Assembly: GCA_030148915.1 (NCBI GenBank)
Contig: JASBSN010000047.1
Span: 1 to 61,434 of the forward strand
DNA from: Thiogranum sp.
GTDB taxonomy: Bacteria > Pseudomonadota > Gammaproteobacteria > DSM-19610
Reading direction: 5' to 3'
Length of the DNA: 61,434 nt
Of this stretch, positions 12,736 through 50,902 are shown piece after piece (within the stretch, counting starts at the first letter, position 1; each line of letters opens with the position of its first letter). The notes below the pieces were generated by a model. That model searched no databases and was not told where the DNA came from. It worked only from the letters and a program-made list of their open reading frames with translations. A program made the position numbers and the translations under genes.

Positions 12736-14117
12736 AGCGATGGTGGTGGTTGTCCTGTTGCTTGTCTGGCGGAAAAATACGCGTTCTTGAGGCGTTGTAC
12801 CAGTGCCGCCAGCAGCGCCAGGCTTAATAGGTTGGGCAGCGCCATCAGAATGTTGGTGATATCGGCGATATTCCACACCAGTTGCAATGGCACGGCGGCA
12901 CCCACCAGCACCAGGAAGGTGAACAACAGCCGGTAGGGCATCACCGCGGCCTCGCCGAACAGAAAGCGCGCCGAGCGATCGCCGTAGTAAGACCAGGCGA
13001 TGATAGTGGAAAAAGCAAACAGGCTCAGGCCGATGCCGACCACCGCGGCACCGGCGGTACCCAGTGAGGACTCGAAGGCGTAAGCGGTCAGTGCTGCGCC
13101 CACCAGGCCCTCCTGCTGCAGGGTGTACGCGCCGGTGACGACTATCACCAATCCGGTCATGGTGCAGATCACCAGGGTGTCGATGAACGGCTCCAGCATC
13201 GCCACCAGGCCTTCGCGCACCGGCTCGTTGGTGCGCGCCGCGGCGTGCGCCATGGGCGAAGAACCCAGCCCGGCCTCGTTGGAAAACAGCCCACGCGCCA
13301 CACCCCAGCGGATCGCTTCGCCCACCGCCGCACCACCGACCGCCCAGGGGTTGAGGGCGTGGCTGAAGATGGTCATCAGCGCCGCCGGTATTTGTGCCGC
13401 GTGGTTGAACAGCACCAGCGCCGCGCCGCTGATATACAGCAACGCCATGGCCGGTACGATGGCGCTGGCGACATGCGCGATGCGCCTTACTCCGCCGAGG
13501 ATCACCAGGCCAACCAGGAACGCCATCACAGCGCCGGCCAGCCAGGCATTATCGCGCACCTGCGGCAGCAGGTAACCGAGGCCGTCGACTACCGAGTTGG
13601 CCTGCACCATGTTGCCGATACCGAACGAGGCGATCAGCGCAAAGCCGGCAAACAGAGTCGCTGTGCGTTTCATGCGCAGGCCGTGCAGGAGGGTGTACAT
13701 GGGGCCGCCGGCGACGTCGCCGTCGACGCCGATTTCACGGAATTTCAGCGCCAGCGTGCACTCGGTGAATTTGGTCGCCATGCCGAAGAAGGCCGTCACC
13801 CACATCCAGAACAGCGCACCCGGTCCGCCGAGAGAAATGGCGGTGGCTACACCGGCGATGTTACCGGTGCCGACGGTGGCCGACAGCGCGGTGGACAAGG
13901 CCTGGAAGTGGCTGATCTGCCCCGCGTCGCTGCTGCAGTTGTAGCGCCCGGAGACCAGCGCCAGCGCATGGCGAAAACCACGCAGTTGAATAAAACCCAT
14001 GCGCAGCGTCAGGTACAGCCCCATGCCGAGCAGAATCACCAGCGTCAGGCCGTTGCCCCACAACAGGCCGGCCAGTGCACCGCTCCAGGCGGTGAGCGTG
14101 TCGAGAAGGTTATTCAA
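12732..14117 (-). CDS. AGCS family alanine/glycine:cation symporter
   Basis: Inner-membrane sodium- or proton-coupled amino acid symporter of 461 residues with about ten to eleven hydrophobic helices. Signature stretches are GTGNIAGVATAISLGGPGALFWMWV, given here by its end points (residues about 87-111), FGMATKFTECTLALKFRE, GGPMYTLLHGL and RGLFSNEAGLGSSPMAHAAA. The length fits DagA/AlsT proteins. It overlaps the preceding protease gene by eight bases. The particular amino acid carried cannot be read from sequence. Confidence 0.92.
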   Translation of the reverse strand: MNNLLDTLTAWSGALAGLLWGNGLTLVILLGMGLYLTLRMGFIQLRGFRHALALVSGRYNCSSDAGQISHFQALSTALSATVGTGNIAGVATAISLGGPGALFWMWVTAFFGMATKFTECTLALKFREIGVDGDVAGGPMYTLLHGLRMKRTATLFAGFALIASFGIGNMVQANSVVDGLGYLLPQVRDNAWLAGAVMAFLVGLVILGGVRRIAHVASAIVPAMALLYISGAALVLFNHAAQIPAALMTIFSHALNPWAVGGAAVGEAIRWGVARGLFSNEAGLGSSPMAHAAARTNEPVREGLVAMLEPFIDTLVICTMTGLVIVVTGAYTLQQEGLVGAALTAYAFESSLGTAGAAVVGIGLSLFAFSTIIAWSYYGDRSARFLFGEAAVMPYRLLFTFLVLVGAAVPLQLVWNIADITNILMALPNLLSLALLAALVQRLKNAYFSARQATGQPPPSL

Positions 14118-39513: not shown

Positions 39514-40506
39514 ATGAACGTCGCCGACAAGAAACGGCTGCTGCGCGAAATGTTGTATGCGCGGCGCTTTGAGGAGCGCTGCTACGAAGCGTATGTCGAA
39601 CGAAAAATAGGCGGGTTTCTGCACCTGTACCCCGGCCAGGAGGCCTGTTGCCACGGCGTGCTGGAAGCGGCGCGCCCGGGTCAGGACTATGTGATCACCG
39701 GTTATCGTGATCATGTGCACGCCATCAAGTGTGGCGCCGACCCCAAGGAAGTGATGGCCGAGCTCTATGCCAAAGAGACCGGTTCTTCCAAGGGTCGCGG
39801 CGGGTCGATGCATATTTTCGATACCGGGCACCATTTCATGGGTGGCTATGCGCTGGTCGGCGGACCCTTCCCGTTGGCCGCCGGCATGGCCAAAGCGATA
39901 AAAATGAAAGGTGGCGACGAGATCGCCATCTGCTTTCTCGGCGACGCCGCGAATAACCAGGGCACCTTCCACGAATCGCTCAATATGGCCAAGTTGTGGG
40001 AGTTGCCGGTGTTGTATGTGTGTGAGAATAACCTCTACGGTATCGGCACCCGCATCGACCGTTCGACTGCGGTGATCGAGCAGTACAAGCGTGTCTCGGG
40101 TTATAACATTCCCTCGGCGCAGGAAGACGGCCAGGACATCGAGAAGGTTTTCAAGGCCGCCAAAAAAGCCGTCGATTATGTGCGCTCCGGCAACGGCCCT
40201 TATTTCCTCGAACTCATGACCTATCGCTACCGCGGTCATTCCATGTCCGACTCCAACGCCTATCGCTCCAAAAAGGAAGAGCGTATGTGGTCGGAGCGTG
40301 ATCCCATCATCATGCTGCGCGACCGTCTGATCAAGGCGGGCGAAATAAGCAAGGACGATTACAAGGCCATGGACACCGAGATTCTCGACAACATTGAAAA
40401 CGAAGTTATCGCTTTTGCCGAGTCTTCGCCGGAACCGCGCGTGGACGAGCTGGAGAAATATGTACTCGCCGAGAATGATCCGTGGGTATACGGAGGTGGC
40501 CGCTAA
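39514..40506 (+). CDS. pdhA: Pyruvate dehydrogenase E1 component, alpha subunit
   Basis: ThDP-binding subunit of heterotetrameric E1, 330 residues. Motifs: GQEACCHGVLEA, ITGYRDHVHAIKCG, RGGSMHIFDTGHHFMGGYALVG, the ThDP fold ICFLGDAANNQGTFHESLNMA, and the phosphorylation-loop region RYRGHSMSDSNAYRSKEE-like stretch (about residues 245-262). AAGGAG precedes the ATG. It starts the pdhA-pdhB-E2/E3 operon. Branched-chain or acetoin substrates cannot be fully excluded, but the resemblance is to pyruvate enzymes. Confidence 0.93.
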   Translation: MNVADKKRLLREMLYARRFEERCYEAYVERKIGGFLHLYPGQEACCHGVLEAARPGQDYVITGYRDHVHAIKCGADPKEVMAELYAKETGSSKGRGGSMHIFDTGHHFMGGYALVGGPFPLAAGMAKAIKMKGGDEIAICFLGDAANNQGTFHESLNMAKLWELPVLYVCENNLYGIGTRIDRSTAVIEQYKRVSGYNIPSAQEDGQDIEKVFKAAKKAVDYVRSGNGPYFLELMTYRYRGHSMSDSNAYRSKKEERMWSERDPIIMLRDRLIKAGEISKDDYKAMDTEILDNIENEVIAFAESSPEPRVDELEKYVLAENDPWVYGGGR

Positions 40507-41486
40507 TGGCACAGATCATGTATTGGGAGGCGCTGCGCCGCGCCCACGACGAAGAAATGGATCGCGATCCACTGGTGATCTGCATGGGCGAGGACATCGG
40601 TGTCGCCGGCGGTACCTATAAGGCCACCAAGGGTCTGTACGACAAGTACGGCGCGGAACGCGTCATCGACACACCGATTTCCGAGAACGGTTACACCGGT
40701 CTGGGCATCGGCGCCTCGTTTCTGGGCGTTCGGCCGATTATCGAAATCATGTCGGTGAACTTTGCCTGGCTGGCCATGGACCAGTTGTTCAACAGTGCCG
40801 CCAAGGTGCGCTATATGTCCGGTGGACAGCTGACCGCCCCGCTGGTGGTGCGTTCGGCCGGCGGGACCGCCCACCAACTCGGCGCCCAGCACTCGGCGCG
40901 CATGGAGAAAGTCTTCATGGGTATCGCCGGGTTGCGCGTTGTCACGCCGTCCAATCCGCGTCAGGCCTACGGATTGTTGAAATCCGCCGTGCGCTGTGAC
41001 GACCCGGTGTACATCAATGAACACGAGCTGATGTACAACATGAAGGGCGAGGTGCCGGACGAGGAGTATTTCCAGCCGCTGGAAGGCTCCGAGATCGCCC
41101 GTGAAGGCAGCGACGTGACGCTGTTCGGCTACAACATTTCCGTTCACTGGTGCTTGCAGGCTGCGCAGACGCTGGCCAAAGAGCACGCTATCAACGCCGA
41201 GGTGGTCGACCTCTTTGCGCTCTCACCGCTTGACCGCTCGGGCATTGCCGCTTCGGTGCGCAAGACCCATCGTGCGGTGATTGTCGAGGAGGCGGAGCCG
41301 GCGGTCGGCGTCGGCGCCGAGGTGATGGCGATTATCAACGAGGAATGCTTTTTTGAGCTGGACGCCGCACCGCTGCGCGTCTCTGCGGCCAATGTGCCCA
41401 TGCCCTACAATCACGGGTTGGAAAAAGCGGCCATCCCCAACGCCGGTGACGTGGTCGCCGCGGTGCGCAAAATGCTTGGCAAATAG
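40506..41486 (+). CDS. pdhB: Pyruvate dehydrogenase E1 component, beta subunit
   Basis: 326 residues. The start ATG shares a base with the pdhA stop (TAATG), so the subunits are coupled. Motifs: MGEDIGVAGGTYKATKGLYD, DTPISENGYTGLGIGASF, EIMSVNFAWLAMDQL and the C-terminal transketolase domain with VVDLFALSPLD. It is followed by a 104-base gap with a long hairpin before the E2-E3 gene. Confidence 0.94.
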   Translation: MAQIMYWEALRRAHDEEMDRDPLVICMGEDIGVAGGTYKATKGLYDKYGAERVIDTPISENGYTGLGIGASFLGVRPIIEIMSVNFAWLAMDQLFNSAAKVRYMSGGQLTAPLVVRSAGGTAHQLGAQHSARMEKVFMGIAGLRVVTPSNPRQAYGLLKSAVRCDDPVYINEHELMYNMKGEVPDEEYFQPLEGSEIAREGSDVTLFGYNISVHWCLQAAQTLAKEHAINAEVVDLFALSPLDRSGIAASVRKTHRAVIVEEAEPAVGVGAEVMAIINEECFFELDAAPLRVSAANVPMPYNHGLEKAAIPNAGDVVAAVRKMLGK

Positions 41487-41500
41487 GCCCGCGGGTCCCC

Positions 41501-41559
41501 GGGGCGCCAGGAACGCCGCGTGTTTCAGTTGTTGCCGGATCGGGCGTTCCTGGTGCCCC
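41501..41559. repeat. Long hairpin between pdhB and the E2-E3 gene
   Basis: Seventeen-base arms (41501-41517 and 41543-41559) differ at one position only and enclose 25 bases. There is no T tract, so it is more likely a processing or stability element than a terminator. Confidence 0.7.
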
Positions 41560-41590
41560 GCCGGTCTCAAATTCAGGATTTGGATCAAGC

Positions 41591-44500
41591 ATGGCTGAAC
41601 CCTACGTGATCAAAATGCCGCAGCTCTCGGACACCATGACCGAAGGAGTGGTCGTCAGCTGGGAAAAACAGCCCGGCGATAAGGTCGAGCGCGGCGATAT
41701 TGTCGCCACCGTTGAAACCGACAAGGCGATTATGGACGTGGAAGTGTTCCGTGACGGCTATCTGTCCGGCCCGCTGGCGGCCACCGACAGTACCGTGGCG
41801 GTAGGTGAGGCTATGGCTTATCTGGTGGCCGATGCCGAGCAGGCGCGCCGGGGCGCCTTGCCGGGCGGTGCGGCGCCGCCCGCAGCCCCGGCGAGTGAGG
41901 CGGGCGATCCGCCCGCGGCCGGCGCGGCCGACCCGGAATCGCCGGTGCCGGGTGCCACCGGCACACCGGCAGCACCTGAGGGCGCCAGTTACACCATCAC
42001 CATGCCGCAACTGTCCGACACCATGAGCGAAGGCGTAGTGGTCAGCTGGGAAAAACAGGTCGGCGACAAAATCGAGCGCGGTACCGTGGTGGCCACCGTC
42101 GAGACCGACAAAGCGATTATGGACGTCGAAGTGTTCCGCGAGGGTTTTTTATCCGGTCCGCTGGCGGCGGTCGATGCCACGGTTCCGGTCGGTGGCGCCC
42201 TGGCGTATCTGGTCGACAGTGCCGATAAAGTGGTGGACAGCCAGGCGGATCCTGTCGCCGCTTCACCGGCATCGGCACCTGCCGCCGCCGTGGCGTCGGC
42301 CGAGCGTGCGCCTCTGGCGGCGCCATCGGCGCCTGTGCCGGCGGGCGCCATGGCGTTGGCCGCGCGCCCGCAGGGGCGTGGTGCCAGTCCTTACGCGCGC
42401 TCGCTCGCCGCACAGCGCGGCATTGATTTGAATCCGTTGCGCGGCAGCGGGCCGGGCGGCGTCATCGTGGCTGCCGACCTGGCAGGGGCCGCGGCCGCTG
42501 CATCCGTGCAGGCCGGTTTTCCGCAAGTGGATGTTCCCGGCGACGGGCGTGCCATGAACAAGCTGGAAAAAGCGATCAGCCAGGCGATGACGGCCTCGTT
42601 GAGTATGCCGACTTTTCACGTTACCACGTATATCAAGCTGGGCGCGTTGATCAAGGCCTCTAAGGCTCAGGGCGTCTCGGTGACCGTGACTATCGCCAAA
42701 GCCTGCGCCCTGGCGATGCAGAAGCTGCCGAAAATGAACTGGTGTTACCAGCCGCAGGACAAACTGGTGGAGCGCACCCATGTGGATATCGGCATGGCGG
42801 TGGCCGCCGACGGCGGCGGCCTGGTGGTGCCGGTGCTGCGTCACTGCGAAAGCCGTGAACTGGATGAATTGAACGACGACTGGAAAGACCTGGTGGAGCG
42901 GGCGCGCAAGCGTCGCTTGAAACCCGAGGAGTACACCGGTTCGAGCTTTCAGATTTCTAACATGGGCATGTTCGGCGTGAATCATTTTGACGCCATCGCC
43001 ACGCCGGGTATTGCCGCCATTCTGGCGATTTCGGCGAACACCGAAGCGGGCAGTCCGTTCACCATTACCGCCGATCATCGGGTTGTCAACGGCGCCGATG
43101 TCGCGCTTTATCTCAAGGCGCTTAAGGAACTGGTGGAACAGCCTGGCAGTTGGATGGGGCCGGGCGGCCCGGCCATTCCGGAAGGTGACTGGGACTACGA
43201 TGTCGTGGTGGTCGGTGGCGGTCCGGGCGGTGAAGACTGTGCCCGCGACCTGGCCGGACACGGCCTCAAGGTGGCGCTGGTCAACGATGCGCCGCTGCCC
43301 GGCGGAGAGTGTCTGTGGCGCGGCTGTATTCCCTCCAAAGCCTGGCGCGCGGCGGCCGACCGGATTCGCGATCGGTTGCACGACGGCCATCTCGGTATCA
43401 CCCCGGGGAAACCGAAACTGGACTGGAACAAGCTCGAACAGACGCGCCGCAACGTCCTCGAAACCCGCGGCGAAATGGCGCTAAAGACCGACACGGGCGT
43501 GAAGATCAAATACATCCAGGGTTTCGGCCGCTTCGTCGACGCGCACACACTGTTCGTCGATACCTCTGGTAATAACGACAACGCGCACGCACGCGCCCGG
43601 CTCGGTGATCAGCCACAGGGCGAAACCCTGCGTTTCGGCTGTGCCGTAATCGCTACCGGCGCGCCGCCGTTTGTGCCGCCGATCCCCGGTGCCGTCGAGG
43701 GCCTGGCCGAGGACGGCGGGGTGCTGACCTCCGATACCGTCTGGATGCTGCCCGCGCAGCCGAAGAAGCTGGTGGTCATCGGCGGTGGCGCCATCGGTCT
43801 GGAGATGGCGCAACTGATGCAGGATTTCGGGGTTCGGGTCACTCTGTTGGAAGCGCGCGAGCGGATTCTCGCCGAGGTTGAAGCGGAAATCGCCAAACAG
43901 CTCACCGCCGTGCTCAACGATGATCCGCGGCTGGCTATTCATACTTCAGTGCGTATCGACAAAATCTCCGGCAAGGCCGGCGATGTGCGGGTGGCGTACA
44001 AGGACGCAGACGGTAAGTCGCACACGGTCAAAGCCGATTACGTCATTATGGGTACCGGCAAGCGCCCGGTGCTGGACGGTTTGGGGTTGGAGAACATCGA
44101 TGTGGCCACCGAAGGTCCGGCGATCAAGGTCGATACGCGTGGTCGCACCAGTGTGCCGCACGTGTTCGCCATCGGGGACGTAGTGCCGGGCTACATGCTG
44201 GCGCACACCGCGGCGCAGCAGGGTCGGGTGGCGGCTGCCACGATCCTCGGCGAAGACCGCCAGTATGATCAGGACAAGGACTGCGGCGTCATTTTCACCC
44301 GCCCGGAAGCAGCCTTTGTCGGGCTCTCCGTCGAGCAGGCCAAGGCCAAGGGTGTCGATGCCGTAGAGGTCAAGGTGCCGATCAATATCGACGCCAAGGC
44401 TATGATCAATGACGAACAGCACGGTATGATCAAGCTGGTGGCGGATAAGAAAACGCAGCGCATTATCGGCGTTCACCTGCTGGCCGATCACGCCGATACC

Positions 44501-44665
44501 CTCATCGGCGAAGCCGTGATGATGGTCTCGGCGGGTCTGACCTTGGAGCAGGTGGGTAACGCGATCCATCCGCATCCGACCCAGACGGAGCTGTTCGGTG
44601 ATCTGGCCCGGCGCCTCGGTTCACGCCTGCGGCGCAGCGCCAAAGTCAAAGTCAAAGCCAAATAA
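41591..44665 (+). CDS. Fused dihydrolipoamide acetyltransferase (E2) - dihydrolipoyl dehydrogenase (E3)
   Basis: A single frame of 1024 residues. Two lipoyl domains (about 1-80 and 132-210, lipoyl lysines 45 and 174 in [10 protein letters not shown]), each with an Ala/Pro linker; a subunit-binding domain (about 264-300, [16 protein letters not shown]); the acetyltransferase domain (about 315-525, with [17 protein letters not shown], His496). After a short linker E3 begins near 534: FAD motif [18 protein letters not shown], redox pair C574/C579 in [18 protein letters not shown] motif [15 protein letters not shown], second FAD motif [20 protein letters not shown] and catalytic HPHPTQTE. The redox loop resembles MerA-like E3 proteins. 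E2 and E3 are normally separate genes. Confidence 0.93.
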
Positions 44666-44697: not shown

Positions 44698-45909
44698 ATG
44701 TCCAAAGTCAACAAAGTGGTGCTAGCCTATTCCGGCGGTCTGGATACTTCCATCATTCTCAAATGGCTGGAAGACACCTACGGTTGCGAAGTGGTGACCT
44801 TCACCGCGGATATCGGCCAGGGCGAAGAAGTGGCGCCGGCACGCGCCAAGGCCGAAGCCATGGGCGTAAAGGAAATCCATATCGAGGACCTGCGCGAGGA
44901 ATTCGCCCGCGACTATGTGTTCCCGATGTTTCGCGCCAATACGGTTTACGAAGGTGAGTACCTGCTGGGCACTTCCATCGCCCGCCCGCTGATCGCCAAA
45001 CGTCTGGTCGAAATCGCCAACGCCAGCGGCGCGGACGCCATCGCCCACGGCGCTACCGGCAAGGGCAACGATCAGGTGCGTTTCGAGTTGGGCGCCTACG
45101 CGCTCAAGCCGGACGTGAAAGTGATTGCGCCCTGGCGCGAGTGGGATCTGAACTCGCGCGAGAAGCTGATGGCTTATGCCGAGCGGCACGGTATCCCTGT
45201 GGATTTCAACAAAGGCAAAAAATCGCCTTATTCAATGGACGCCAATTCGCTGCATATTTCCTACGAAGGCGGCATTCTCGAAGACCCCTGGGCGGAACCG
45301 GAAGAAGATATGTGGCGCTGGAGTGTCGCGCCGGAGCAGGCGCCGGACACGCCGAGCTATGTCGAGCTTGGTTTCGAGAAAGGCGATATTGTTTCCATCG
45401 ACGGGCGCCGCGTGACACCGGCCGAGGTGATGGAGCGGCTGAATAAGCTGGGCGGTGACAACGGCATCGGCCGCGATGACATTGTCGAAAACCGCTATGT
45501 CGGCATGAAATCGCGCGGCTGCTACGAAACACCGGCCGGCACCATTATGCTCAAAGCCCACCGCGCCATGGAATCGCTGACGCTCGATCGCGAAGTGGCG
45601 CACTTGAAAGACGACCTGATGCCGCGTTATGCCAGTCTGATTTATAACGGCTATTGGTGGAGCCCGGAGCGGCGCATGCTGCAAACGATGATCGACGCTT
45701 CGCAGGTTCACGTCAACGGTACCGTCAGATTGAAACTCTACAAAGGTAATGTCACGGTGGTCGGGCGCAAGTCCGAGGGTGATTCGCTGTTCGACGAACG
45801 CATTGCTACGTTTGAGGACGACGCGGGGGCCTATCATCAGGGCGATGCCGAAGGTTTTATCAAGCTCAATGCGCTGCGCCTGCGCATCGCCGCGCGCCGC
45901 CGGGACTGA
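44698..45909 (+). CDS. argG: Argininosuccinate synthase
   Basis: 403 residues, joining citrulline and aspartate with ATP. Motifs: [20 protein letters not shown] (P-loop), [32 protein letters not shown] and [19 protein letters not shown]. It completes the argF-argG step pair present in this window, although the genes are 17 kb apart. It follows the E2-E3 gene after 32 bases on the same strand. Confidence 0.97.
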
Positions 45910-45964: not shown

Positions 45965-46348
45965 ATGCGGATGCTACATACCATGCTGCGGGTCGGCGAC
46001 CTGCAGCGTTCCATCAGTTTCTATACCGAAGTGCTGGGCATGCAACTGCTGCGGCAGAAAGACTATCCAGAGGGTAAGTTCACCTTGGCGTTTGTCGGTT
46101 ATGGTGGGGAGTCCGACCACACGGTGCTCGAACTGACGCACAACTGGGACACGTCGAGTTACACCCTCGGCGACGGTTACGGGCACATCGCGCTGGAAGT
46201 GGACGATGTCTATAAAGCCGCCGAAGATATTCGCCAACGCGGCGGAAAAATTCTGCGCGAAGCCGGGCCGATGAACGCCGGCAGTACGATTATCGCCTTC
46301 GTTGCCGATCCCGATGGCTACCCGATCGAGTTGATCGGCAAAAAATAG
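45965..46348 (+). CDS. gloA: Lactoylglutathione lyase (glyoxalase I)
   Basis: 127 residues, converting the methylglyoxal-glutathione adduct to lactoylglutathione. The metal ligands of GloA are in place: His5 (MLHTMLRV), Glu in TVLELTHNW, His in [11 protein letters not shown] and the last Glu in [16 protein letters not shown] lies upstream of the ATG. Convergent with the IclR gene. Confidence 0.96.
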
Positions 46349-47284: not shown

Positions 47285-49501
47285 ATGAGTCGTCCCAGTC
47301 CCGCCGCACACCCCGTCAGCCCGCCCGCGTTCTGCGAAGGTATACGTTATTTTGCCGATGCATGGCCGGAATTCACCCGGTTCGCCGATACCGCGGTAAT
47401 CGAACCGCAGGCCACGGCGATCGCGGATGTCGACGCTCCCCGGGCCGTCTATCAGACGCTGCTCGGCGCCGATGCGTTGCGCTACGTCACCTTGCAGGTG
47501 TGCGGCTCCAAGGGCTCGGGCCATCCCGGCGGTTTTGCCTCCAGCGCCGAAGCGCACGCCGCACTGATGATGCTCGGTCACACTAACATTGTCACTGAGG
47601 TCGGCCACCACGCGCCGGGCTTCTACGCCTCGATGTTTCTCGACGCCTCGCTGGAAGCGATGGGTATCCATACGCTGTCCGATATGATGCAGCGCTTTCG
47701 CGAACGGCACGGACTGCTCGGTCATCTCTCCGGCGCTATTCCCGGCCTGTTGTCCCCGGCCGGCCCGCTCGGCCAGGGTCAGCATTTCGCCATGGCCGGC
47801 GCCTGGTTGCACCGCGACAAACTGTTTCCGGTCACCATCGGCGACGGCGGTATGGGCGAACCCTATGTGCTCAATGCGATGATGCACTTCCACACCGCTT
47901 ATCCGCACGTCACCAATTTCCTGCCGGTGCTGGTATGGAATGGCTACTCGCAGGAGCACCATTCAATGGTGTCTCTGTACAGCAATGACAACATGATCGA
48001 TTACTGGCAGGGTCACGGTTTTGACAACGTCGTGCTGGTCGATGCCAGCGAGTATGACGACAGCGCCCAGGAAGGTCCGTTTGTCGACAGTACGCGTTTT
48101 TCATTCCAGGGCAGACAGGCTTTCGCCGCAGCGGTGTTGCGTGGCGTCGACCAGGCCGCGCGCTCGGCCATGTCGGGCAAATTGACGGCCTTCATTATTA
48201 AGCAGCTCAAGGGCGCCGGCGTGCACACCGTGGGCGCCAAGTCGCATAACCTGTACCCGGCCGACACGCTGGATGCCGAGCATATCACCGAGGCGCTGAA
48301 ACGTCGCGCGCTGCCGCCCGAAGCCTGGCAGATCGTGCGCGACAACTTCAGCCGCGCCGGCGGTGGTCCGGCGGCCAAAACGGTGGTCACCGAGCGTGAG
48401 TTGGAACTCCCGCCGCTGCCGACACTAGCGCTGCAGGAGTTTGCCAAGGGCGAAAAAGCCGTACCCTCGACCGCCATGGGCGCGCTGGTGGCCCAGGTGG
48501 GGCAGGCCGACCCACGCTTTGTCGTCACCAACGCCGACGGCAACGAGGCCTCGGCGATGAAGAACATCAACGAGGCGCTGAAAATCCGCCATCCGACGCC
48601 CGACCCCCTCTACCATCAGTCACCGGACGGACAGGTTTACGAGCCTCTCAATGAAGACGCCTGCGCCGGCTTTGCCGCCGCTCTGGCCCTGTTCGGTTCG
48701 CGCGCGCTGTGGTTGTCCTACGAGTCGTTCGCCATCAACGGCTGGCCGATTGTGCAGACCGTCACCCAGGCCATGGCCGAGTTGCGCCGCAAAACGCCGT
48801 CCATCGTCACGCTGTTTACCGCCGGCGCGCTGGAGCAGGGGCGCAACGGCTGGACCCATCAGCGCCCCGAAATCGAGAACTACTTCGCCGCCATGATGCG
48901 CAACGGTAACCTCTATGCGCTGTTTCCCTGCGACGCCAACTGCATCCAGGTGGCTTACGAGTACGCCACCGACAGCTTTAACAAGGGTATGGTGTTGATT
49001 GCCTCGAAAAGTCCGCTGCCGGTCTACCTGTCGCTGAACGAAGCACGCCAGGCGGTAAGCGAAGGCGCGGCGATACTGTATGAATCGTCAGCCGGTGAGC
49101 AGGGCACGGTGGTGTTCGCCGTGACCGGCGACATGGTTCTGCTGCCGGTGTTCGAGGCCAGAGATCGACTGGAAGCGGAGGGTTACCGTGTACGTATTGT
49201 CGCGGTGATCAATCCGCGTCGCCTCTACCGGTCCACAGACGTCGCCTGGGACACTGTCTCCGAAGCGGACGACCGGTTCATGGACGACGACCGGTTCAAC
49301 GCCCTGTTCGACGGCGATTGGCTGCTGGCGGTAAGCGGCGGCCCGAGTGCGCCGCTGGAACCGGTATTACTGCGCACCCGTGCCCCCCGCCGTGACACCG
49401 TCTGCTGGAAACGCGGTGAGACTACCGCCTCTCCTGGGGAGATCATGGCGTTCAACGGCATCACGGCGGAAACTATGGTGCAGTGCGTCAAGCGGCTCTG
49501 A
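47285..49501 (+). CDS. Phosphoketolase/transketolase-like ThDP-dependent enzyme
   Basis: 738 residues. The N-terminal part has GSKGSGHPGG (about 74-83), a transketolase-like loop, and the ThDP motif GDGGMGEP (186-193) ending at Asn219 in VLVWNGYSQEHHS. The second half resembles phosphoketolases: LWLSYESFAINGWPIVQTV, RNGWTHQRPEIENYF and LFPCDANCIQVAYEYAT, with a transketolase C-domain. It is shorter than typical phosphoketolase (about 790-820) and lacks its GHGHGGP loop. GAGGAT precedes the ATG. It heads an operon with an acid-sugar kinase and glcDEF; some homologues have been named xylulose-5-phosphate epimerase, but the reaction here is unknown. Confidence 0.7.
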   Translation: MSRPSPAAHPVSPPAFCEGIRYFADAWPEFTRFADTAVIEPQATAIADVDAPRAVYQTLLGADALRYVTLQVCGSKGSGHPGGFASSAEAHAALMMLGHTNIVTEVGHHAPGFYASMFLDASLEAMGIHTLSDMMQRFRERHGLLGHLSGAIPGLLSPAGPLGQGQHFAMAGAWLHRDKLFPVTIGDGGMGEPYVLNAMMHFHTAYPHVTNFLPVLVWNGYSQEHHSMVSLYSNDNMIDYWQGHGFDNVVLVDASEYDDSAQEGPFVDSTRFSFQGRQAFAAAVLRGVDQAARSAMSGKLTAFIIKQLKGAGVHTVGAKSHNLYPADTLDAEHITEALKRRALPPEAWQIVRDNFSRAGGGPAAKTVVTERELELPPLPTLALQEFAKGEKAVPSTAMGALVAQVGQADPRFVVTNADGNEASAMKNINEALKIRHPTPDPLYHQSPDGQVYEPLNEDACAGFAAALALFGSRALWLSYESFAINGWPIVQTVTQAMAELRRKTPSIVTLFTAGALEQGRNGWTHQRPEIENYFAAMMRNGNLYALFPCDANCIQVAYEYATDSFNKGMVLIASKSPLPVYLSLNEARQAVSEGAAILYESSAGEQGTVVFAVTGDMVLLPVFEARDRLEAEGYRVRIVAVINPRRLYRSTDVAWDTVSEADDRFMDDDRFNALFDGDWLLAVSGGPSAPLEPVLLRTRAPRRDTVCWKRGETTASPGEIMAFNGITAETMVQCVKRL

Positions 49502-49513
49502 TGAGTAACGGAT

Positions 49514-50902
49514 ATGACCGAGACCAAAATAATCGTCCTCGACGATGACCCGACCGGATCGCAGACCGTGCACAGTTGCCTGCTGCTCACGCGCTGGGAC
49601 GTCGCCACGCTCAGAGAAGGGCTGGAGGATGCCGCACCGCTGTTTTTTATCCTCACCAACACGCGCGGCATGGATGCGCAGCGGGCGGCACGACTGACCC
49701 GCGAAGTCTGTGGCAATCTCAAACAGGCGCTCTCAGAGCTGGCGGGCGCGGGCAGGGCCGTCAACCCGCTGATAGTGAGCCGTTCCGATTCCACGCTGCG
49801 CGGCCATTATCCGCTGGAGACCGATGTCATCGCCGAACAGCTCGGGCCTTTCGACGCCCACTTTCTGGTGCCGGCGTTTTTCGAGGGCGGGCGCCTTACC
49901 CGCGACAGCGTACATTATCTGCTGGTCGACGACGTACCGGTGCCGGTACACGAAACCGAATTCGCCCGTGATTCGATCTTCGCCTATGAGCACAGCTACC
50001 TGCCGGACTACGTCGAAGAAAAGACTCGCGGACGGGTCAATGCCGCGCAGGTCGAACGCTTCGTACGCGAGGATATACGGGGGGATATCAGCGACCGATT
50101 GATGAACCTGAGCGACAACCGCTGCTGTGTGGTGGACGGCGAATCTCAGGCCGATCTCGACCATTTCTCCATGCAGTTGCTGCAATGCGCCGGGCGCGGC
50201 AAGCGTTTCCTGTTTCGCAGTGCCGCCAGTTTGCTGACCTCGTTGGCCCAATTGCCGCCGCAGCGGGTCGCGGCCGCTGATATGCGTGCCTATGTGCCGG
50301 GCGGCAGGCCCGGTGCGGTGATCGTCGGCTCCCACGTCAACAAAACCACACTGCAGCTCGCAGCGCTGCTGACTCAGCCGGGCATCGCGGGCATCGAAGT
50401 CGATGTCGAGCGTATCGATGACGCTGGTGAAGCGTTGCGCGACGATATTTTTCGGCGTATTGAACGCGCCCACCGCGACGGCCTTACCTGTGTCGTCTAC
50501 ACCAGCCGGACCGAGAAGGTATTCCCCGATCAGGCCGGGCGCCTGGCCTTCGGCGAGCGGGTTTCCGGCCTGCTTATGGACATCGTGCGCGGTCTGCCGC
50601 AGACGCTGGGTTTCCTGATCAGCAAGGGCGGTATCACCTCCAATGATGTGCTGAGCGCGGGCCTGGCGCTGCGCACGGCGCGGGTGCTCGGCCAGATTAT
50701 CCCGGGCTGCTCGGTGGTGCGCTGCGCGATGGATCATCCACGTTACCCGGGTATACCGGTGGTGATCTTTCCCGGCAATGTCGGCGACCAGTCGGCGTTG
50801 GTGCGCGTCTGGGCGCGCCTCGCCGGTAAGGACGAGCCCGGAGCCGCCGCCAGCCCGCAGCCGCTACCGGCTGTCAATAGCCCCTCGGGTGGCAGGGGAT
50901 AG
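49514..50902 (+). CDS. Four-carbon acid sugar kinase family protein (DUF1537)
   Basis: 462 residues. The substrate domain begins IIVLDDDPTGSQTVHSCLLL, with SRSDSTLRGHYPLETD and a LVPAFFEGGRLT motif. The C-terminal nucleotide-binding domain has VIVGSHVNKTTLQLAALL, LGFLISKGGITSNDVLSAGL and IPVVIFPGNVGDQSALVRVW. Characterised family members phosphorylate threonate, erythronate or 2-keto-tetronate. It starts 12 bases after the ThDP enzyme. No PdxA2-type dehydrogenase or OtnI-type isomerase is present, so the pathway differs from the known ones. Confidence 0.88.
   Translation: MTETKIIVLDDDPTGSQTVHSCLLLTRWDVATLREGLEDAAPLFFILTNTRGMDAQRAARLTREVCGNLKQALSELAGAGRAVNPLIVSRSDSTLRGHYPLETDVIAEQLGPFDAHFLVPAFFEGGRLTRDSVHYLLVDDVPVPVHETEFARDSIFAYEHSYLPDYVEEKTRGRVNAAQVERFVREDIRGDISDRLMNLSDNRCCVVDGESQADLDHFSMQLLQCAGRGKRFLFRSAASLLTSLAQLPPQRVAAADMRAYVPGGRPGAVIVGSHVNKTTLQLAALLTQPGIAGIEVDVERIDDAGEALRDDIFRRIERAHRDGLTCVVYTSRTEKVFPDQAGRLAFGERVSGLLMDIVRGLPQTLGFLISKGGITSNDVLSAGLALRTARVLGQIIPGCSVVRCAMDHPRYPGIPVVIFPGNVGDQSALVRVWARLAGKDEPGAAASPQPLPAVNSPSGGRG

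Follow-up and report, generated by a model that had tools for sequence, protein, structure and literature searches.

We found that a single gene in a 61,434-nucleotide stretch of Thiogranum sp. DNA (contig JASBSN010000047.1, the whole of which is called the window below) encodes an intact E2 joined to an intact E3, and this chain very probably supplies both activities to the pyruvate dehydrogenase complex of the cell. The enzymes of pyruvate dehydrogenase are normally separate proteins, and in the textbook complex E1 and E3 are loosely bound around a self-assembling E2 core. The fused gene is retained in 87 distinct full-length proteins, lies beside genes for a two-subunit E1, and excludes the one-polypeptide E1 AceE in a class-wide sample of Gammaproteobacteria. 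The parts of E2 that serve core formation are shortened in the fused chain, and this bears on how the complex might assemble.

Searched against Pfam, the 1024-residue chain gave lipoyl matches in two stretches, followed by E3_binding (265-297), 2-oxoacid_dh (321-522), Pyr_redox_2 (536-878) and Pyr_redox_dim (899-1003), each above its own cut-off. The fused chain has the architecture of an E2 acyltransferase at Pfam cut-offs, with lipoyl domains, a subunit-binding domain and a PF00198 core, and its E3 part carries the features of a dihydrolipoyl dehydrogenase, namely the FAD/NAD glycine motifs, CxxxxC, a C-terminal His-Glu pair and a dimerisation domain. The catalytic residues of both enzymes were found in the window's chain (E2 Ser456, His496 and Asn500; E3 Cys574, Cys579, His995 and Glu1000) and no internal stop interrupts it, which bears out the original prediction of E2 and E3 in a single frame. 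Third-position GC ranged from 0.72 to 0.79 and was similar across E1 alpha, E1 beta, the E2 part, the E3 part and argininosuccinate synthase, giving no sign of a chimera. A structure model of the whole chain reached a pLDDT of 83.9 and a pTM of 0.61. The coordinates of all features are collected in Table 1.

Table 1 Features of the E2-E3 fusion gene and its surroundings in the window.
Feature	Coordinates	Strand	Details
E1 alpha (pyruvate dehydrogenase, acetyl-transferring)	39514..40506	+	330 aa; PF00676 1.5e-84; TIGR03182 410.9 bits, cut-off 393.85
E1 beta	40482..41486	+	334 aa longest frame; Transket_pyr and Transketolase_C; NF006667 376 bits, cut-off 321
Inverted repeat	41500..41560	+	intergenic, E1 beta to fusion gene; 18-nt arms, 94% complementary
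E2-E3 fusion gene	41591..44665	+	ATG start, 1024 aa, 107 kDa, stop-free frame
Lipoyl domain 1	41603..41824	+	residues 5-78, lipoyl lysine K45; PF00364; in 72/87 proteins
Lipoyl domain 2	41990..42211	+	residues 134-207, lipoyl lysine K174; PF00364; lysine 87/87
Peripheral subunit-binding domain	42377..42481	+	residues 263-297; PF02817 40.9 bits, cut-off 23.7
E2 acetyltransferase domain	42545..43153	+	residues 319-521; Ser456, His496, Asn500; PF00198 5e-48
Short helix H2	42641..42670	+	model residues 351-360
Shortened interior hairpin before DHR	43016..43072	+	19 residues
E2-E3 linker	43154..43192	+	residues 522-534
E3 lipoamide-dehydrogenase-like domain	43193..44605	+	residues 535-1005; CLWRGC 43310-43327; HPHPTQTE residues 993-1000
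C-terminal Arg-rich helix	44591..44662	+	residues 1001-1024
Argininosuccinate synthase	44698-45909		downstream of fusion gene
Lactoylglutathione-lyase-like (glyoxalase) gene	45965-46348		after argininosuccinate synthase

The chain is a genuine fusion and not an assembly error. Ninety-eight loci, the window's included, were stop-free from the lipoyl domain to the end of E3 and gave 87 distinct full-length proteins, the other 86 of which shared 54-84% identity with the window's protein. The loci were taken from a scan of species genomes, from which the best 80 of 350 related loci were kept in order of whole-chain score and are thereby biased toward fusions, and from near relatives, of which 28 of 56 genomes matched at E <= 1e-100. 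The frameshift that had been thought worth checking near 43180-43200 was absent, all 98 loci being uninterrupted, and a frameshift or assembly error is ruled out by the 87 distinct proteins open across the junction. The second lipoyl lysine, both E3 cysteines, His995 and Glu1000 of E3 and Glu754 after the NAD motif are invariant in all 87. The catalytic Ser, His and Asn/Asp of E2 (DHRxxN/DG) are equally well kept, with Ser456 and His496 in 87/87 and Asn500 in 86/87, the single exception having Thr. The first lipoyl domain is recognised in all but 15 proteins, which either lack it or start at a contig edge (L028, L081).

The linker between E2 and E3 is 13 residues long in 67 of the 87 fused proteins and 14-40 in the others. 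That E2 and E3 are separate proteins after all, through an artefact such as an overlooked frameshift, or through an internal start or proteolysis, is very improbable. Near the junction, 13/87 proteins, including the window's, show a start codon together with a crude match to a ribosome site, and linkers of 21-40 residues, many of them Ala-rich, occur in 16/87; both points speak for separate products. Against this, the junction is open in all 87 proteins, and with M in 55, L in 21 and I in 11 of them, residue 522 offers no conserved start codon; the same ribosome-site motif was found at the true start in only 10/87, so the test has little power in either direction. Provided that the chain stays uncleaved, the fusion sets E2 and E3 at the 1:1 ratio that had been proposed.

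Regarding its spread, the fusion was detected at E <= 1e-100 in 47 of 229 genomes of a gammaproteobacterial class sample picked independently of fusion presence, and almost all of these matches span the E2-E3 junction in one frame. The exceptions are genome G142, with two pieces within one 1051-aa frame, and G171, where the match is split over two contigs. For G224 the tabulated match covers the E3 part only, yet E2 lies in the same frame, and for G095 and G101 one stop each was reported. Named isolates with the fusion include Thiohalobacter thiocyanaticus Hrh1 and Thiohalophilus thiocyanatoxydans DSM 16326. Among the matches listed for a phylum sample of 120 genomes, the only genome with the chain was the window's own. 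Plasmids were searched with the whole chain, E3 and E2. Among the 15 best of the matches listed for the whole chain, E2 and E3 are two genes wherever both are annotated, and they occupy separate frames in the unannotated H7, H10 and H1. The description of the fusion as uncommon needs to be qualified, as the fusion is frequent within part of Gammaproteobacteria. Fusions with 60-68% identity (62-68% for the first two) were also present on contigs labelled Desulfobacteraceae (L066), Halobacteria (L068) and Betaproteobacteria (L071), which may be mis-binned. A further frame of 1051 aa with E3 (L170:196-2784, minus strand), from a member of the class, was considered as a second fusion and rejected, being a VTT membrane domain with a disulphide reductase.

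The neighbourhood was surveyed in 92 loci, some representing the same species twice; upstream flanks of 2.2 kb or more were available for 71 and downstream flanks of 1.4 kb or more for 88. In 71/71 of the loci with sufficient upstream sequence, homologues of both E1 subunits lie upstream of the fusion gene on the same strand, with gene centres within 4.5 kb. The E1 adjoining the window's fusion gene is predicted to be pyruvate-specific, as its alpha subunit passes the TIGR03182 cut-off; the longest frame of E1 beta overlaps the end of E1 alpha, and its true start may be further downstream. The accessible part of PMC2663715 assigns the one-polypeptide E1 of the AceE kind to Gram-negatives and the alpha/beta kind to Gram-positives and eukaryotes, which makes the alpha/beta E1 here notable, although it is not unique to this lineage among Gram-negatives, being also present in Novosphingobium pCAR3 (L161).

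AceE (TIGR00759, E <= 1e-100) was found in 0/47 genomes with the fusion versus 155/182 of the others (Fisher 6e-30, shared ancestry ignored), and 27 of the 229 genomes had neither. The scans for the fusion and for AceE covered 229 genomes each and were equated via genome labels, every label in the AceE listing recurring in the fusion scan and the 54 non-matching genomes being unnamed in the AceE listing. In the window's genome, AceE gave two weak matches only, both below the cut-off, and the only other E2 is SucB, whose neighbours are a 2-oxoglutarate dehydrogenase E1 and an Lpd of its own; all three pass their cut-offs. Among 18 fused genomes hand-picked from the 47, the fusion is the sole E2 domain in seven (G038, G045, G054, G062, G064, G140 and G143), whose completeness is 97-100%. 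The E1 neighbours, the exclusion of AceE and the absence of another E2 in those seven genomes argue for a role as the working E2 and E3 of pyruvate dehydrogenase. It is very unlikely that the chain is instead a MerA-like reductase or part of a different 2-oxo acid complex (acetoin, branched-chain). The equivalog cut-offs for E2 and E3 are not reached, which would suit such an assignment, the curated pyruvate E2 models giving 308.2 of 445 bits (TIGR01349) and 178.5 of 722 bits (NF008814); however, E1 alpha passes its pyruvate-specific model, fusion and AceE are mutually exclusive in the class sample, and the E3 groups with Lpds, away from MerA.

For the substrate, catalysis, E1 docking and assembly of the fused complex we infer the following scheme. 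The separate alpha/beta E1 from the same cluster would decarboxylate pyruvate and acetylate a lipoyl domain of the chain, and the lipoyl arm would hand this group on to the E2 domain, which by its family is a trimer, to give acetyl-CoA. The dihydrolipoyl arm would then reach an E3 domain, of its own or a neighbouring chain, where FAD, Cys574-Cys579 and His995-Glu1000 would reoxidise it with formation of NADH. As E3 is covalently attached, the subunit-binding domain would be left free for the docking of E1. The first five of the seven genomes named above lack both a second E2 and any Lpd that passes the curated cut-off, and their fused E3 might therefore also serve other lipoyl proteins, e.g. 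the glycine cleavage system.

The E3 domain had been described as MerA-like rather than a usual Lpd, and this description was not supported. Judged by sequence, the fused E3 is a clade of its own on the lipoamide dehydrogenase side. It scored 377.0 bits with the Lpd profile TIGR01350 (cut-off 408.8) versus 299.0 bits with the MerA profile TIGR02053 (cut-off 454.45), and since the TIGR01350 cut-off is missed we term it Lpd-like. In a tree of 63 proteins that included 14 of the 87 fused E3s, these 14 formed one clade (100/100) on a long branch, inside a 95/96 group of 54 rows made up of the 14 fused E3s, 38 Lpds, E. coli SthA and one own protein, within which the tree leaves the exact sister open; two MerAs and glutathione reductase fell outside this group. 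The phylogeny thus places the fused E3s with Lpds and not with MerA. The motif CLWRGC is present in 87/87 fused proteins; its counterpart is mostly CLNxGC in Lpds and CVNVGC or CVNIGC in the two MerAs. Among frames of at least 150 aa in the loci analysed, CLWRGC occurred in 120 and in no unfused E3; all 120 exceed 600 aa except L117, a 350-aa fragment whose match spans the E2-E3 junction. Profile scores, tree and motif together lead us to reject a MerA-like E3. The closest structural match is an Lpd, but structure comparison separates the two families little (Lpd 1ebd, Z 42.8, versus MerA 5x1y, Z 41.3). The chain ends in an Arg-rich helix (ARRLLSRLRRS-like) with R1007, R1008, R1012, L1013 and R1015 in 87/87 proteins, and this end differs from those of the ten Lpds and two MerAs compared. 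A MerA relative is encoded at another site of the same genome (C80, L004).

Compared with unfused E2s, the fused E2 is shortened in two places, and the full H2, interior hairpin and free C-terminal knob of core-forming E2s were not found in it, while the terminal W521 is kept. The interior hairpin, counted from AIL to DHR, has 19 residues in the fusion versus 31-32 in 34/34 unfused E2s, and the H2 segment has 31 residues versus 37-42 in 33/33, corresponding to a loss of about 12 residues in the hairpin and 6-11 around helix H2; both lengths are identical across all 87 fused proteins. The unfused E2s came from the loci analysed and mostly adjoin an Lpd gene, with L169 counted for the hairpin only; excluded were L002 and L126, whose SucB is that of L171, together with frames lacking a DHR-like motif (for example L167, which is partial). 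The spacing of S456 and H496 is 40, compared with 52 between Ser558 and His610 in Azotobacter E2 (residues given in the 1dpc entry title), a difference that matches the 12 residues missing from the hairpin. At the end of E2, W521 and P518 of H7 are present in 87/87 fused proteins, and W521 stands 26 residues past the DHR aspartate; from that aspartate to the chain end the distance is 28-31 in unfused E2s. The knob formed by H7 continues via the linker into E3 and has no free end. The E2 domain modelled alone reached a pLDDT of 88.9 and a pTM of 0.84, and its best structural match was a pig E2p core (Z 27.6, 2.0 A over 203 residues). According to the available part of PMC9681731, H2 and the C-terminal H7 contribute to the knob and socket between trimers, and the hairpin faces the core interior.

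As for the assembly, with a shorter interior hairpin and H2 and an E2 knob that continues into E3, we tentatively favour E2 trimers held together by E3 dimers, in the manner of actinobacterial OdhA, as a hexamer or another E3-bridged particle rather than the classical cube. In known relatives, E2 domains form trimers and E3 domains form dimers. The complex could then be a coreless pyruvate dehydrogenase in which covalent E3 dimers replace the knob-and-socket core, and the only pyruvate dehydrogenase of a broad gammaproteobacterial set, a picture we hold with the same reserve. It is possible, if less probable, that the fused E2 keeps the classical 24-mer cube via W521 knobs, with 12 E3 dimers on the two-fold axes. 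The invariance of W521 and P518, the resemblance of the E2 fold to cubic cores and the two-fold symmetry shared by E3 dimer and cube edge are in keeping with a cube, and so is the position of W521, which is reached without an insertion like the three residues to which PMC10415282, in its accessible part, attributes the trimeric state of actinobacterial AceF. The short hairpin, the short H2 segment, H2 being part of the socket in the portion of PMC9681731 cited above, and the start of E3 only a short linker after the knob speak against it. The original picture of 24 E3 domains crowding a cubic core, to which this reading is close, is doubtful, because the core-interior and inter-trimer-socket parts of E2 are shortened and the knob is not a free end. 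With W521 and P518 kept in every fused protein, a knob-like contact may persist. A short E2 need not be coreless either, given the compact E2 of Thermoplasma (3rqc/4ofs), which we take to be part of a large 42-mer.

The domains of the fused chain and their chemistry are already known, and the new element, within the open-access literature searched, is the E2-E3 fusion of pyruvate dehydrogenase. No such fusion was found in that literature, which was searched largely by abstract openings, with most subscription journals and all preprints outside its scope. Two apparent precedents were set aside on the portions available: the "E2 and E3 domains" of PMC1472686 concern ubiquitin, and "fused" in PMC2663715 concerns the alpha and beta parts of E1. 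Actinobacterial OdhA/KGD, as presented in the accessible part of PMC10415282, resembles the fusion in carrying two consecutive 2-oxo acid dehydrogenase activities per chain and in combining a trimeric E2 with a dimeric partner. It differs in that E2o is fused to the dimeric E1o of oxoglutarate dehydrogenase, giving the OdhA hexamer, and receives its lipoyl group in trans, whereas the present chain joins E2 to the E3 of pyruvate dehydrogenase and has its own lipoyl domains. The E2-lpdA-pdhA-E1 beta cluster of Novosphingobium pCAR3 has the same activities and kinds of domain, with E2 and E3 as adjacent genes; in the fusion they are one gene, the E2 hairpin and H2 are short and the E3 has CLWRGC. 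A Caballeronia protein (L164) likewise has a lipoyl domain and E3 in one chain, but it is without the E2 acetyltransferase and has CLNVGC. This protein and the E3 of Neisseria (5u25/1ojt), which presumably also has an N-terminal lipoyl domain, share about 32-35% identity with the fused E3. The compact E2 of Thermoplasma acidophilum (3rqc, 4ofs) has a similarly short catalytic domain of 214-217 aa (Z ~25), but it is archaeal, shares 25% identity and was solved as a chain without E3.

A lineage with E2 and E3 in one chain, core contacts seemingly cut back and AceE absent would offer a natural test of whether a large core is needed, and its fusion would mirror the actinobacterial E2-E1 fusion OdhA as a counterpart. 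The fixed 1:1 ratio of E2 to E3 would also provide a simple system for channelling studies. In genome annotation, genes of this kind could be mis-annotated as only Lpd, E2 or MerA.

Around the fusion gene, argininosuccinate synthase was found in at least 59 and the glyoxalase in at least 29 of the 88 loci with at least 1.4 kb downstream, many of which end early. The inverted repeat ahead of the window's fusion gene had an RNA fold z of -3.06 and is a possible attenuator or processing site; a 14-base pattern from its arm occurs genome-wide only at the two arms, and the 11-base core of this pattern occurs once more at 13514. Further along the window, positions 47285-50902 hold two genes 12 bases apart: first one for a divergent protein resembling phosphoketolase, with a best NCBIfam score of 112.6 bits of 962, then a sugar-acid-kinase-like gene that scored 64.7 of 450 with the D-threonate kinase model.
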